Shown here: one piece after another, positions 746 through 6,517 of the stretch
Layout: each line of letters begins with the position of its first letter
Numbering within the stretch: position 1 is the stretch's first letter
Assembly: GCA_030427245.1 (NCBI GenBank)
Contig: JAUHXA010000023.1
Coordinates: 1 to 64,000, forward strand
DNA: 64,000 nt
Direction of reading: 5' to 3'
From: Bacteroidia bacterium
Lineage (GTDB): Bacteria; Bacteroidota; Bacteroidia; Chitinophagales; UBA2359
Position numbers and translations under genes: made by a program
The notes under the pieces: generated by a model
Database searches by the model: none
Told to the model about the DNA's origin: nothing
The model's input: only the letters and a program-made list of their open reading frames with translations

Positions 746-3700
746 ATGCAGCAAAAAACGCTACCCATCCTTTTCCTCACAACCCTAACCTTTCTTCTTG
801 CTCTATCCACCGACACCTTCCAAAAACCCTACACTTCAACAGCGTTGAACAACACGGCAACAATGCCCAAACCCACCGAAATCGTTCAAAAAGACAAAGA
901 CGACAAATCCTTCAAAAAACGAAGAAAGCAGTGGGAAGAAGACCGCAACAAAACCGCAGAAGGTGACAATTGGCGGGAAATAGATGCTCAATACCGACAG
1001 AAAAAACACGCTCGGATTGAAGCCAAACGCCAACATCTTTGGCAACAAGGCTTGCTCAAAACGAATGGCTTTGAAGACGTAGCCAATGGACATTTGACTG
1101 GCGAATGGCGAGAACGGGGCAGCAAAAACCAAGCAGGGCGTTTGCATACTTGCGACATAGATTTTGACAACAATCTCATTTATGCCGCATCCTCAGGCGG
1201 AATCCTTTGGCGGGGAAACATGGACGGCACCGATTGGACAAGCCTCAACGACTACCGTTCCTTTTACATTCATTCCGTAAGAGTCGTTTATACCGACGGC
1301 AATATGGGTTGCAGTCCAACATGGGAGCTCTATCAACTTTGCGCTGCCAATGGCGGAACCTACAATCCAGAAACCAAACAATGCGAAGGATGTGTAGCTT
1401 TTGAAACAGCAGAAGCAGCACAAGGACCTTGTGGAGAGGGCGAAGTGATGGATTGTGCGGGAAACTGCATCCCCGAAAGTCAGTTCAACGACTGGATTGG
1501 AGATGGATATTGCGACGATGGTACGTATGGGGCGGTGTTTACCTGCGACCAATTCAACAACGATGGCGAGGATTGCGGCACACCAAGTTCGGGTTGCAGC
1601 GCGGCATGGTTGAAGTACCAATTGTGTCTTGCAGCGGGAGGTGAATACAGCATTGGAGGAGGCACTTGCAGCGTTCCCATTGCAGCTTGTGGCGCATTTA
1701 CGAGTATTGCACAAGCGCAAGGGGCTTGCCCCGATGGTCAAATCATGGACTGCGATGGCAACTGTTTTGACCCCGAATTTTTTGGCGCAATTGGCAATGG
1801 CGATTGTCAAGACGGCAACGAAACGCCCAACTTCAAATGCACACAATACCAAAACGATGGTGAAGATTGCGGCACGATTAAGCGCATTATTGCAGCAGGA
1901 AATGGCGTTTTATACACCGACAATGAGGGCGCAACGTGGAACATTGCAGCAGGTTTGACGGGTACAGTCGACCGAATGGTGACAGCAAACGATGCGTATG
2001 AAACCATTTATGTCTTGACCACGAGTGGCGGATTGAAGCATTTGTACCGTTCTACCAACCAAGGTTCGAGCTTTGATTTTGTCTATACTTTTTCCACCAA
2101 CAACGGTGATATTTGGGCTTCTCGTTATGGCTCGGGTGACTTGTATGCAGTCAATGGAGAAGAAACCTATCGCTTGATAGCTGGCACGGACACACCCGTT
2201 TTAGTCGGTTCGGTCAATCCTTCGAGTACAGGCTACACGCTTTTGGTGGGTGGCGAAAGCGAAAATGGCGTTTTTCTATACAGCTACATGGACGGCAAAA
2301 TTTATGCTTCGATGGATGGAGGTTCAACATGGAGCTTCAAAAGCGACTCACCCGAAAATCCCTTTGGCAGAAACAGTTTGGGCTGCTCCACCTCCAATCC
2401 CAACCGAGTCTATATCGGTGGCGTAAACGCTTTTCGCAGCTACAATGGCGGCTCGTCTTGGACGCAGGTAAATGGCTGGGCAGAATATTATGGCGACCCA
2501 CAAAACAAATTACACGCCGATATTGACGGCATTGACACCTTCAAAGACACCGATGGCAGCGACTTTGTGATGGTGTCGACAGATGGCGGTTTGTACCGTT
2601 CGGACGATGATTTGCAGTCCGTCGACAACCGAACATTGAGTGGCATGGGCGTTGGTCAATACTACTCAGTTTACACCTGCAAGTTTGACCCAAAAGTCAT
2701 TTATATCGGCAGTCAAGACCAAGGTTTTCAGCGCACACGATTGGATGTGACGGGTGAAGGATTGGTGGATTTTGAGCAGACGATTAGTGGAGATTACGGA
2801 CACATCACCTCACTCGACGAAGGCGCAAGTTTTTGGACGGTTTACCCAGGCTTTGCGATGTACTATCCCGATGCCATCAACAGCAACGCCAATCGAACAT
2901 GGGATTTTGCGAATGATGGAAATGGATTTCAGTGGATGTCCCCTTTGATGGCTGACCCCGATGGTGCAGATAAGGTATTCATTGGAGGAAGTGGCGCAAG
3001 CAGTGGGCAGCACCTTTGGCATTTGAACACCAATGGCGGAACAAATATGATTCCTACCGAATTGCCTTTTGATTTTAGTAGCAGTGGCTCGATTACTGCC
3101 TTAGAATACGACTCCGAAACGCCCTCGATTCGCTATGTAATGACCAACGATGGCGACCTTTTCCGCACCAACAACGGCGGTGACAGTTGGACGCTTGTTT
3201 GGGAAGGACCTGATTCTATGCGTGGAAACGACATCATTCCTTCAAAGCTGAATGTCGGTACGGTATATATTGCAGGAAGCGGCTACTCCAATGCAGGCGT
3301 TTTGGTCAGCACCGATTATGGCGACACTTTCGAGCCGATGATTGAAGGTTTGCCTCCTACCAATATCAATCAATTGGCATTGACTCCCAACGAAGATTTG
3401 CTCTTTGCAGCGACCAACGTAGGGGCGTTTGTGTATGTATTTGCAGATGCGATGTGGTATGACATTGGCGGCATTAGCGCACCCGACCAAGATTACCGAA
3501 CGGTGGATTTTGTGCCAGCTACGGGAACGGTTCGTTTTGCGACCTATGGGCGTGGAGTTTGGGATTTTGCATTGGCGTGTTATGCCGCACCTACCCAATT
3601 GAGTACGCTTTCGGTCAGCACCAATTCCGCTTCTTTGCAGTGGAACAATACAACGGGCGCAAATGCCTATCAAGTGGATTACCGTCCGACTGGTGGCAAT

Positions 3701-5386
3701 GGATGGACAAGCCTTTTTACAAGTAGCAATACAATTTTTATTGAAGGTTTGGACGGTGATACAGATTACGAATTTACGGTGCGGGCGACTTGCGGCTCAA
3801 ATACGACCATGATTTCTGAAACAGGCACTTTTACAACCTATTGCACTGCAATGGCAAGCGATACGGAGTTTGGTTGGATTGAGCAAATTCGCTTGAATCA
3901 ACTCGACAACACAAGCGGCAACGATAGCGGTTATGGCGATTATTTGACTCAAAACACGACCGTTTTGGTCGGGATTCCCTACGAATTGCAACTCACACCA
4001 GCCTTCCCAACTTTTGCCGCTCCGCAACATTGGAAAGTATGGGCAGACTTGAATCGAGATGGAAGTTTTGACGAGGCAAACGAATTGTTGTTTGCGACCG
4101 AAAATGCTTTGGAGGAGGCTTTGGCGGTGGATTTGCAGCTATCGGAAATGGTCAGTGAAGGGGCTGCAATTTTGCGGATAGCCATGCAATACGACCAGCC
4201 GATTGCAGATGCTTGCAGTGCCTTTGTGTATGGCGAGGTGGAGGACTACACCATTGACATCAAAAAATACTGTACTTCAATGGGTAGCAGTGCTTATTGG
4301 GAGTGGATTGCGGGAGTGGAAGTGGGTGATTTTGTGCATGAAAGCGGTGCAAACGATGGTTTTGGCGACTTCAATGACCAAATCATCGAATTGACGGCTG
4401 GCGAAACCTATCCTGTCACTTTGACCCCTGGATTTTTGGGACAAGCGTATGATGAATATTGGAAAATTTGGATTGACTTCAATGGAAATGGCGAATTTGA
4501 GACCTCCGAATTGGCATTTGATGCGGGCAGCACAAGCACGGCTGCGGTCAATGGCGAAATCACCATACCTGAATCGGTGGCAAATACGTATGTCAAAATG
4601 CGGGTAGCTATGAAATACAGCGGTGCGTCCGATGCTTGCGAAATTTTTGGCGATGGTGAAGTCGAAGAATACACTGTACGATTGCGTGCAACGGAGGCCC
4701 GACTTCAATTGAAGGTCTTACTCGAAGGAGCTTTTGATGTCGAAACAGGCAGAATGACCACCAATTTGCTGCAAAGAAATCTCCTTCCGCTTGCCCAACC
4801 TTTCAATGGTGAACCGTGGAATTATACAGGTGCAGAGGTTTTGGGAAGCAGTGATTTGCTACCCGAAAACATGGTGGATTGGATTTTGGTCGAAATCCGA
4901 GATGCCAACGATGCTTCTATTATCCTCGAACAAAAAGCGGCGCTCCTCCTACAAGATGGCAGTATTGCAGACCCTCTCGACCCAACAGCCTCTAAAGGCT
5001 TGCGCTTTGAATCCAACTTGGAAGACATTTCGGCTGTTTTTGTTTCGGTCAAAACCCGCAATCACCTCGCTGTTCTTTCTGCTCAAACGGTTACACTGCC
5101 TACTGCTGCGCCGTTTGACTTGACGAACCCGAACAATGTGAGTGGTGGTGAATCGCAATTGACGGAATTGGATTCAGGAACAGGAGTGTTTGGTTTGTTG
5201 TCTGGTGACTTCAATAGCGACGGTATTGTGTCGGTTGAGGACTTCAATTTTTTCCACGCTCAATTGGCTTTGTTGAATTTTTATGTGGATGGGGACTGTA
5301 ATATGGACGGGATGGTGAATGTTGGGGATTATAATTTGTATCGAGGGAATTCGAGTGTGATTGGGGTTGAGGAGGTGAGGTATTAG
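746..5386 (+). CDS. Secreted multidomain protein: LNR, Asp-box propeller, Fn3, GEVED, dockerin-like
   Basis: A 1546-residue exported protein starting at ATG 746 with a signal peptide (residues 1-25, hydrophobic ILFLTTLTFLLALS). Two Cys-rich modules resembling Lin-12/Notch repeats end in NNDGEDCG (about 249-277) and QNDGEDCG (about 349-376). A long propeller region (about 380-940) carries Asp-box motifs such as DNEGATW, DGGSTW, NGGSSW and NGGDSW, as in sortilin/BNR-type proteins. A fibronectin III domain follows (about 944-1030), then two GEVED domains (about 1032-1315), each ending in GEVE(D/E)YT. The C-terminus (about 1486-1546) holds two dockerin-like calcium loops (DFNSDGIVSVEDF and DCNMDGMVNVGDY). 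The domain set suggests extracellular binding, adhesion or glycan contact; no catalytic residues are evident. The usual type IX sorting domain is missing, so the export route past the outer membrane is unclear. Confidence 0.85.
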   Translation: MQQKTLPILFLTTLTFLLALSTDTFQKPYTSTALNNTATMPKPTEIVQKDKDDKSFKKRRKQWEEDRNKTAEGDNWREIDAQYRQKKHARIEAKRQHLWQQGLLKTNGFEDVANGHLTGEWRERGSKNQAGRLHTCDIDFDNNLIYAASSGGILWRGNMDGTDWTSLNDYRSFYIHSVRVVYTDGNMGCSPTWELYQLCAANGGTYNPETKQCEGCVAFETAEAAQGPCGEGEVMDCAGNCIPESQFNDWIGDGYCDDGTYGAVFTCDQFNNDGEDCGTPSSGCSAAWLKYQLCLAAGGEYSIGGGTCSVPIAACGAFTSIAQAQGACPDGQIMDCDGNCFDPEFFGAIGNGDCQDGNETPNFKCTQYQNDGEDCGTIKRIIAAGNGVLYTDNEGATWNIAAGLTGTVDRMVTANDAYETIYVLTTSGGLKHLYRSTNQGSSFDFVYTFSTNNGDIWASRYGSGDLYAVNGEETYRLIAGTDTPVLVGSVNPSSTGYTLLVGGESENGVFLYSYMDGKIYASMDGGSTWSFKSDSPENPFGRNSLGCSTSNPNRVYIGGVNAFRSYNGGSSWTQVNGWAEYYGDPQNKLHADIDGIDTFKDTDGSDFVMVSTDGGLYRSDDDLQSVDNRTLSGMGVGQYYSVYTCKFDPKVIYIGSQDQGFQRTRLDVTGEGLVDFEQTISGDYGHITSLDEGASFWTVYPGFAMYYPDAINSNANRTWDFANDGNGFQWMSPLMADPDGADKVFIGGSGASSGQHLWHLNTNGGTNMIPTELPFDFSSSGSITALEYDSETPSIRYVMTNDGDLFRTNNGGDSWTLVWEGPDSMRGNDIIPSKLNVGTVYIAGSGYSNAGVLVSTDYGDTFEPMIEGLPPTNINQLALTPNEDLLFAATNVGAFVYVFADAMWYDIGGISAPDQDYRTVDFVPATGTVRFATYGRGVWDFALACYAAPTQLSTLSVSTNSASLQWNNTTGANAYQVDYRPTGGNGWTSLFTSSNTIFIEGLDGDTDYEFTVRATCGSNTTMISETGTFTTYCTAMASDTEFGWIEQIRLNQLDNTSGNDSGYGDYLTQNTTVLVGIPYELQLTPAFPTFAAPQHWKVWADLNRDGSFDEANELLFATENALEEALAVDLQLSEMVSEGAAILRIAMQYDQPIADACSAFVYGEVEDYTIDIKKYCTSMGSSAYWEWIAGVEVGDFVHESGANDGFGDFNDQIIELTAGETYPVTLTPGFLGQAYDEYWKIWIDFNGNGEFETSELAFDAGSTSTAAVNGEITIPESVANTYVKMRVAMKYSGASDACEIFGDGEVEEYTVRLRATEARLQLKVLLEGAFDVETGRMTTNLLQRNLLPLAQPFNGEPWNYTGAEVLGSSDLLPENMVDWILVEIRDANDASIILEQKAALLLQDGSIADPLDPTASKGLRFESNLEDISAVFVSVKTRNHLAVLSAQTVTLPTAAPFDLTNPNNVSGGESQLTELDSGTGVFGLLSGDFNSDGIVSVEDFNFFHAQLALLNFYVDGDCNMDGMVNVGDYNLYRGNSSVIGVEEVRY

Positions 5387-5714: not shown

Positions 5715-6065
5715 ATGAGTGTATCAACATTAGAAGCTAAAACTGTTTCCATTTCCCTTCAATTAAATTATGCACAAATATTGGAATTGGCGTTGCAGTT
5801 GATGAAAGAAGACAAAGAGCAGTTGATGAAGGATTTGGGGGATTCTTTAGCAAGAGAATGTAAGGAAGAAAGTAAACCTTCAATAGAAGAACCTACTACT
5901 AACTACAATTCCACTACTGTCGAAGAAATCAAAGCGGGAAAGTCAACATATAAACCTGTAGGCAAAGGCTATCTAAAAAAGTTGCAAGAGGAAGCTCAAG
6001 AAATATGGGAAGATGAACCTTTGACTGATGCTGAAATAAATGAACAAATCAAGAAGCATTTATGA
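5715..6065 (+). CDS. Probable antitoxin of a PIN-domain TA pair
   Basis: A 116-residue protein directly upstream of a PIN-domain gene, overlapping it by four bases (ATGA at 6062-6065), the usual arrangement of type II toxin-antitoxin operons. It is charged, with a short predicted beta/helix N-terminus (VSISLQLNYAQILELALQLM) that could be a DNA-binding or dimer region, an acidic/polar middle, and a helical C-terminal tail rich in Glu/Lys that would bind the toxin. A good promoter precedes it. The sequence was not recognised as a named antitoxin family (not clearly AbrB, RHH or Phd), so the call rests on gene order and size. Confidence 0.65.
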   Translation: MSVSTLEAKTVSISLQLNYAQILELALQLMKEDKEQLMKDLGDSLARECKEESKPSIEEPTTNYNSTTVEEIKAGKSTYKPVGKGYLKKLQEEAQEIWEDEPLTDAEINEQIKKHL

Positions 6066-6517
6066 AAAACTATGTACTCGATACCAATATATTGATTCAC
6101 ATTGCCAATATTTCTAAAACATGGGAGAAAATCAATGAACAATTTGACCCTTTTGGAAACAACTCTTACTTGTCTTTCGCTACGGTTGCAGAAGCCAAGT
6201 CTTTTGCGAAAAGGTTGAGATGGGGAAAAGGAAAAATGAGCATTTTAGAAGGAGTCACCCGTTCTTTCAAATTGGTTCATTCAAGTGATGAACTGATTCC
6301 ACATTATGTTGAAATTGACGTATTTAGTCAAGGAAGCCATCCTTCTCTTAAACTTCCCAAAGGGATGTCTGCTCGGAATATGGGTAAAAACGATATTTGG
6401 ATTGCAGCTACTGCGAAATCTATTGAAGGGGCAGAACTGATTACCACGGATAGAGATTTTGAGCATTTGGATGGTGTTTTTTTCAAGGTGAATTATGTGG
6501 GAGGTGTTCAAGCATAG
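6062..6517 (+). CDS. PIN-domain toxin (VapC-like ribonuclease)
   Basis: A 151-residue PIN-domain protein. The acidic residues expected for the metal-dependent nuclease site are visible: Asp7 in YVLDTNIL, Glu44 in TVAEAKSF, Asp111 in GKNDIWIAA and Asp130 in ITTDRDF. PIN toxins cleave RNA, often tRNA or rRNA, and are held inactive by the partner antitoxin. The start codon lies inside the stop of the upstream gene, so translation is probably coupled. Length and motif spacing are normal for VapC-like toxins. The RNA target cannot be inferred. The nearby inverted-repeat elements (5396-5605) fit an accessory insertion next to the 746 gene. Confidence 0.85.
   Translation: MKNYVLDTNILIHIANISKTWEKINEQFDPFGNNSYLSFATVAEAKSFAKRLRWGKGKMSILEGVTRSFKLVHSSDELIPHYVEIDVFSQGSHPSLKLPKGMSARNMGKNDIWIAATAKSIEGAELITTDRDFEHLDGVFFKVNYVGGVQA

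Follow-up and report, generated by a model that had tools for sequence, protein, structure and literature searches.

An X-module-dockerin-like C-terminal module on secreted proteins of a Bacteroidia bacterium, a candidate address tag in T9SS-bearing genomes

The locus and its modular protein

The window (the whole stretch of 64,000 nucleotides analysed here) carries a gene for a secreted protein of 1546 aa, the parts of which are listed in Table 1. A hydrophobic stretch at about residues 7–20 resembles, by eye, a Sec signal peptide. Pfam searches with this protein yielded GEVED (two stretches, 118.9 bits), Sortilin-Vps10 (38.7 bits) and fn3 (31.1 bits), all above their cut-offs, and a loose Asp-box pattern matched seven times, at residues 391, 436, 522, 565, 689, 808 and 855 (spanning 391–862); the Asp-box propeller and the two GEVED domains recognised from the sequence alone were thus borne out. 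By eye, the start of the propeller is split by a Cys-rich cassette, inserted between 'SVRVVYTDGN' and 'TIKRIIAAGN'. The G+C content is 0.48 for the gene, 0.51 for the cassette and 0.40 for the whole window. Promoter and terminator scans gave no signal beyond that of shuffled sequences. Just downstream, at 5715–6517 on the forward strand, two small overlapping ORFs of 116 and 151 aa have, by eye, the look of an antitoxin and a PIN-type toxin.

Table 1. Parts of the modular protein and their positions in the window
Feature	Residues	Position	Strand	Basis
ORF, secreted modular protein, 1546 aa		746–5386	+	ORF call
Start of propeller	~117–187	1094–1306	+	sequence, boundary by eye
Cys-rich cassette, two units of ~95 aa with 10 Cys each	188–282, 283–376	1307–1873	+	
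LNR-like half of unit 1, six Cys, GDGxCD...C...F..DGEDC		1430–1579	+	no match to PF00066
LNR-like half of unit 2		1727–1873	+	
Asp-box / Sortilin-Vps10-type beta-propeller, seven Asp-box-like motifs	~377–945	1874–3580	+	
Fibronectin type III domain	948–1025	3587–3820	+	Pfam
GEVED 1	~1095–1170	4028–4255	+	bounds by analogy with GEVED 2
GEVED 2	1238–1311	4457–4678	+	Pfam
X-module-dockerin-like C-terminal module	1319–1546	4700–5383	+	profile, predicted fold
X-module-like beta-sandwich part of the module		4700–5203	+	predicted fold, boundary by eye
Putative dockerin-type calcium loop 1, DFNSDGIVSVED	1488–1499	5207–5242	+	
Putative dockerin-type calcium loop 2, DCNMDGMVNVGD	1517–1528	5294–5329	+	
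Terminal tail, VIGVEEVRY		5357–5383	+	

A rare Cys-rich cassette with LNR-like halves

The cassette holds 20 of the 30 Cys residues of the protein, and its two units are identical at 45 of 93 aligned positions. Each consists of a first half with four Cys residues and a second half that follows the pattern CPxGxxxDCxGNC...IGDGxCDDG...FxC..F..DGGDC, in which six Cys residues and an acidic DGEDC or DGGDC end recall the LNR. The sequence-only reading had taken these repeats for Notch-type LNR modules, and had named a failed profile search as the result that would speak against this assignment. The Pfam LNR family (PF00066) matched neither the 1546-aa protein nor the isolated repeats. A search of the whole genome with PF00066 (E≤0.001) was also negative, but this is weak evidence because the control genomes likewise gave no match. 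The repeat from the window and a profile of five repeats retrieved nothing from the PDB sequences at E≤10, and the matches of a seven-repeat profile had E-values of 0.27 (an LDL-receptor repeat) and 1.1 (7dxi). A shorter repeat from a relative (L136) drew 13 PDB chains at E≤10, none of them significant; 11 of these chains, representing few distinct proteins, were 7dxi (E 0.04), pappalysins (0.2–0.61) and NOTCH1 (0.84–2.3), all of which we take to be LNR-carrying proteins, and the remaining two were hydrophobins. Single-sequence structure prediction of residues 188–378 gave a pLDDT of 38.8.

We consider it possible, but rather doubtful, that the cassette is a genuine pair of Notch-type LNRs. 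The six-Cys halves closing in F-x-x-DGEDC or a similar sequence, with the calcium-type acidic end that PF00066 domains also have, and the range of chains drawn by the L136 repeat agree with this reading. However, besides the profile and PDB results for the repeats of the window, the first half of each unit differs from an LNR, and the Cys spacing is longer and variable. It therefore seems fair to say that each unit has an LNR-like half, a label that the sequence motif justifies, whereas the designation LNR is unproven.

As to the suggestion that such repeats are uncommon in bacteria, the cassette repeat was detected in five of 395 genomes of the class, the source genome among them (E≤1e-4), and the cassette is single-copy in this genome (E≤1). 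In one relative (L111), repeats of the cassette type lie inside an 806-codon frame with, by eye, beta-propeller-like repeats. In L140 and L137, repeats of the type CxDxxACNYDxxATxDDGSC, many of them in L140, adjoin LNR-like stretches. The cassette would be a separate, rare insertion in the propeller and would probably form a binding loop stabilised by disulfides and metal.

A C-terminal module shared by unrelated proteins of the genome

The C-terminal feature is wider than the dockerin-like end first delimited (residues 1480–1546): it is a module of about 228 aa that starts at about residue 1319 and contains two canonical 12-residue D-x-N-x-D-G loops. With residues 1315–1546 as the query, nine further full-length copies (39–52% identity) and two fragments were found in the source genome. 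All nine form the extreme C-terminus of proteins that are otherwise unrelated, including a GH9 protein, an M14 carboxypeptidase, an esterase-type hydrolase, LVIVD and DUF4832/DUF4874 proteins, a Vps10-type propeller protein with a laminin G domain, and others. The ten modules of the genome end in RY (eight), RYE (one) or KE (one), and no match to the Pfam secretion tails was obtained for the nine further module proteins (E≤0.001). Signs of duplication were seen at two places: a truncated copy with an in-frame stop (L011, G000:C31:104552-104806) lies about 6 kb from an intact copy, and a 25-residue duplicate of the tail (L012, G000:C12:175740-175814) lies just behind another module gene.

Predicted fold and relationship to dockerins

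An AlphaFold2 model of the module, built from an alignment of 77 sequences, had a pLDDT of 96.3 and a pTM of 0.92. In a Foldseek search of the PDB, the top eight matches were chains with a type II X-module-dockerin (XDoc), with E-values of 7.5e-5 to 2.2e-3. VIA-align placed the XDoc chains at Z 9.3–10.1, with 142–149 of 228 residues aligned and an rmsd of 3.8–4.2, an isolated dockerin at Z 5.1 and the rest of the structures shown at 4.2 at most. In searches of the PDB sequences with the family profile, the best dockerin match was 2y3n_B (E 4.5e-5), and 27 of the 45 matches at E≤1 carried cellulosomal or dockerin names, most of the others being EF-hand proteins.

Pfam Dockerin_1 gave 13.1–14.9 bits on the module of the window against a cut-off of 22.9, with a weak trace at residues 1516–1531 (13.1 bits), and one paralogue (L022) exceeded this cut-off with 25.0 bits. 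At E≤0.01, Dockerin_1 matched 16 of 77 modules, dockerin_GC 11 and EF-hand_1 six. The Asp residues at the loop ends are almost invariant (76 of 77 modules at the first position of loop 1, and all 77 at the other three positions), and both loops are canonical, by our own rule, in 62 of 77. The loops alone cannot single out dockerins, because EF-hand proteins match the profile and six modules match EF-hand_1. Nevertheless, the XDoc-like fold match, the dockerin profile matches and the Asp-flanked loops taken together lead us to conclude that residues ~1319–1546 are, on the predicted fold, an X-module-dockerin-like module. The proposal of a dockerin-like C-terminal end thus gains support from both the profile match and the predicted XDoc fold. 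Judging from its loops, the two-loop dockerin would be calcium-loaded.

In the clostridial cellulosome, the dockerin of an XDoc dyad is stabilised by the X-module, according to the accessible text of PMC5590126. The module described here shares with the clostridial type II dyad (PDB 2b59, 5g5d, 4u3s and 5m0y) a predicted beta-sandwich followed by a C-terminal two-loop dockerin, and the dockerin part is related in sequence. However, its X part is larger than the cellulosomal X-module (TM on the query of 0.39–0.47 for the top eight Foldseek matches) and drew no match by sequence, all profile matches beginning at position 128 or later; the module occurs on enzymes and propellers of various kinds in genomes with a T9SS, and its partner is putative.

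Distribution and position in relatives

In a sample of the phylum, taken to be Bacteroidota, 42 of 296 genomes and 37 of 140 genera have the module (E≤1e-6). Neither Pfam nor NCBIfam, in the copies searched, includes a family for it, and no relative was detected in the plasmid and phage collections at E≤1e-5. A scan of named genomes confirmed at least 210 relatives; the best 80 of 210 were retained, with a bias to full-length modules, and these came, judged by title, from Bacteroidota, Ignavibacteria and Chlorobiota assemblies, several per assembly. Alignment A2 took 76 of these 80 (L032, L084, L096 and L100 were dropped). The tail of the module recurs: RY closes 33 of the 76 modules, and several members from Bacteroidales close in QVPx or QIPx.

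The ORF ends within 30 aa of the module in 135 of 141 module ORFs, truncated ones included, and 126 of the 141 have, by a crude test, a hydrophobic stretch near the N-terminus. The module is internal in L096 and N-terminal in L032 (302–2134), where it directly follows the signal peptide and precedes DCxGxC repeats and a YHYH-containing region. Six small proteins of 264–317 aa (L043, L081, L075, L087, L095 and L101) contain hardly anything beyond a hydrophobic N-terminus and the module; such proteins are not easily explained by a docking or a sorting role.

Cohesin-like candidate partners

No protein of the source genome matched the Pfam cohesin family (PF00963) above its cut-off of 24.1 bits, but four cohesin-like domains scored 16.6–22.6 bits. 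A joint profile of the four matched seven PDB sequences, all of them identifiable as cohesins from name or entry and the best at E 0.012, and each of the four directly precedes a type A sorting domain (TIGR04183, 37.1–45.9 bits, above cut-off). Since they carry this T9SS domain, the putative partners would be displayed on the surface.

Fusions of cohesin and module were found in other genomes. At locus L113, a single ORF encodes a 787-aa protein in which two cohesins (84.3 bits) are joined to an XDoc at the C-terminus; the next gene has a type A sorting domain, and 0.5 kb further on, two genes downstream of the cohesin-XDoc ORF, lies a gene with a cohesin (30.2 bits) and a type A domain. At L114, two XDoc genes, one of which also encodes a cohesin (26.0 bits), adjoin a gene in which both the cohesin match (21.9 bits) and the type A match (19.4 bits) stay below threshold, and the locus also has two genes whose type A domain exceeds the cut-off. 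In the same genome (L115), an XDoc gene lies about 6 kb from two genes with cohesin and type A domains. A profile of the L113–L115 cohesins, with E-values calculated for 1288 ORFs, detected three further ORFs with a cohesin-like domain and the module (L082, L084 and L094); only these three are independent, because the profile was built from the L113–L115 sequences. The L084 ORF (832–3966) comprises four weakly cohesin-like stretches, the module and another domain, and its C-terminal tail is, by eye, type A-like. The layout of the L113–L115 genes resembles that of adaptor and anchoring scaffoldins.

Among the matches listed, cohesin and XDoc genes were mostly unlinked, and the rare fused or adjacent cases should therefore be read as architecture and not as statistics. 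At E≤1e-5, a cohesin was present in 17 of 42 genomes with the module versus 55 of 254 others, and absent from 25 of the 42; this co-occurrence (odds ratio 2.5, p 0.012, uncorrected for phylogeny) is weak evidence. The fusions in other genomes suggest docking by the module, and the earlier idea that the C-terminal end docks to a cohesin-bearing surface protein appears plausible from these sequence features.

Sorting domains and export

The T9SS sorting families did not match the protein of the window (E≤1) or its C-terminus (E≤10), nor any of the 77 modules at E≤0.01 in the NCBIfam searches, with a library in which types A and C were present and type B is assumed to be included. The view that the protein ends without a T9SS sorting domain was thus upheld for the known types, among which a cryptic sorting domain, the finding that was to count against it, did not appear. 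The source genome encodes SprA; of its 446 type A candidates, 150 were scored and all of these exceeded the cut-off, so that it has no fewer than 150 type A domains. One type A domain, at G000:C78:25674-25898 on the reverse strand, belongs to a 14,254-codon open frame, a candidate giant surface protein. SprA was found in all 42 genomes with the module, but also in 227 of the 296 genomes and in 135 of the 140 genera. Its association with the module (Fisher p 6.9e-6 by genome) is not significant by genus (p 0.21), and we therefore rejected the T9SS association as strong evidence.

Of the four propeller paralogues (E≤1e-5), L143 and L146 have a type A domain and, by eye, L144 and L145 have none; a type A domain and an XDoc may therefore be alternatives. 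The module could act as a sorting or address domain in its own right. Its position at the extreme C-terminus in most proteins, its recurring conserved last residues (IGVxxIRY, QVPx), the failure of all 77 modules to match a known sorting family, the constant presence of SprA, the type A domain in the same place of two paralogues and the many module genomes without a detected cohesin are what would be expected if it were an unrecognised T9SS sorting domain, with the outer-membrane translocon, or a PorV/PorP-type shuttle, reading the XDoc fold and the last residues and then exporting and anchoring the cargo directly, without a cohesin. We consider this unlikely, since the SprA association is lost at the genus level, L084 combines the module with a tail that is type A-like by eye, L096 and L032 bear the module away from the C-terminus, and the cohesin fusions suggest docking. 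Furthermore, the predicted fold is like XDoc and unlike the T9SS CTD (Z 3.8 for the mirolase CTD in VIA-align). The accessible text of PMC10202324 enumerates T9SS sorting-domain types A, B and C. These domains share with the module a C-terminal position, varied secreted cargo and T9SS genomes; they differ from it in that the module, of about 225 aa, is XDoc-like and none of its members matches them.

A possible address tag

A tail shared by unrelated secreted proteins suggests a previously unrecognised way of surface attachment. We put at about even the chance that the XDoc tail is a general C-terminal address tag of dockerin type, directed at surface proteins with cohesin-like domains. XDoc-bearing proteins would be exported by Sec, and the X-like beta-sandwich of the predicted fold would hold a calcium-loaded two-loop dockerin. 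This plug would bind the cohesin-like domains of other secreted proteins with a T9SS type A domain. The tail would thus stand in for a sorting domain on some ten proteins of diverse kinds in this bacterium. The outer membrane might be crossed by co-export with the cohesin partner or through direct recognition by the T9SS. Far less probable is that the module needs no partner and serves in stabilisation or ligand binding, with the dockerin packed on its own X part purely for structure and the proteins periplasmic or exported in vesicles: the dockerin part is predicted to be rigidly packed (pTM 0.92) and small proteins of a hydrophobic N-terminus and module exist, but the fixed position on unrelated cargo and the conserved loop residues favour a shared partner.

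More broadly, a dockerin-type address tag could belong to a cellulosome-like plug-and-socket arrangement for secreted proteins at large in T9SS Bacteroidota, in which the unannotated X-dockerin tail is a fourth T9SS address, read directly, or crosses the outer membrane piggy-back on cohesin-like type A partners; we propose this tentatively, with less confidence than the tag itself.

Prior work and significance

The closest published idea that we found is the scaffoldin of Ca. Stygibacter (Cloacimonadota). In the accessible part of PMC8542988, secreted enzymes are inferred to end in dockerins, and a scaffoldin to carry cohesins and a CTD for surface attachment, as in the arrangement considered here. 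However, that organism belongs to another phylum, its dockerins came from a standard domain search, and that part of the paper describes neither an X-module-like unit nor this module family. As far as their accessible text goes, PMC5831590 found neither cohesins nor dockerins in the Bacteroidetes genome it studied and regards this as in line with other genomes of Bacteroidetes, PMC6247017 describes cellulolytic machineries without dockerin or scaffoldin in two soil Bacteroidetes, and PMC10266427 records matches to Pfam dockerins for a few single-cell genomes of Bacteroidota. No description of the X-dockerin-like module family was found in searches of an open-access library, although part of it may be in print.

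The module forms a coherent X-dockerin-like family in the sampled genomes of the phylum, and in the source genome it occupies the place expected of a T9SS sorting domain on enzymes and propeller proteins. If the module docks, it would explain how secreted proteins with no known sorting domain could be placed on the surface; if it sorts directly, it would be a new kind of T9SS signal.
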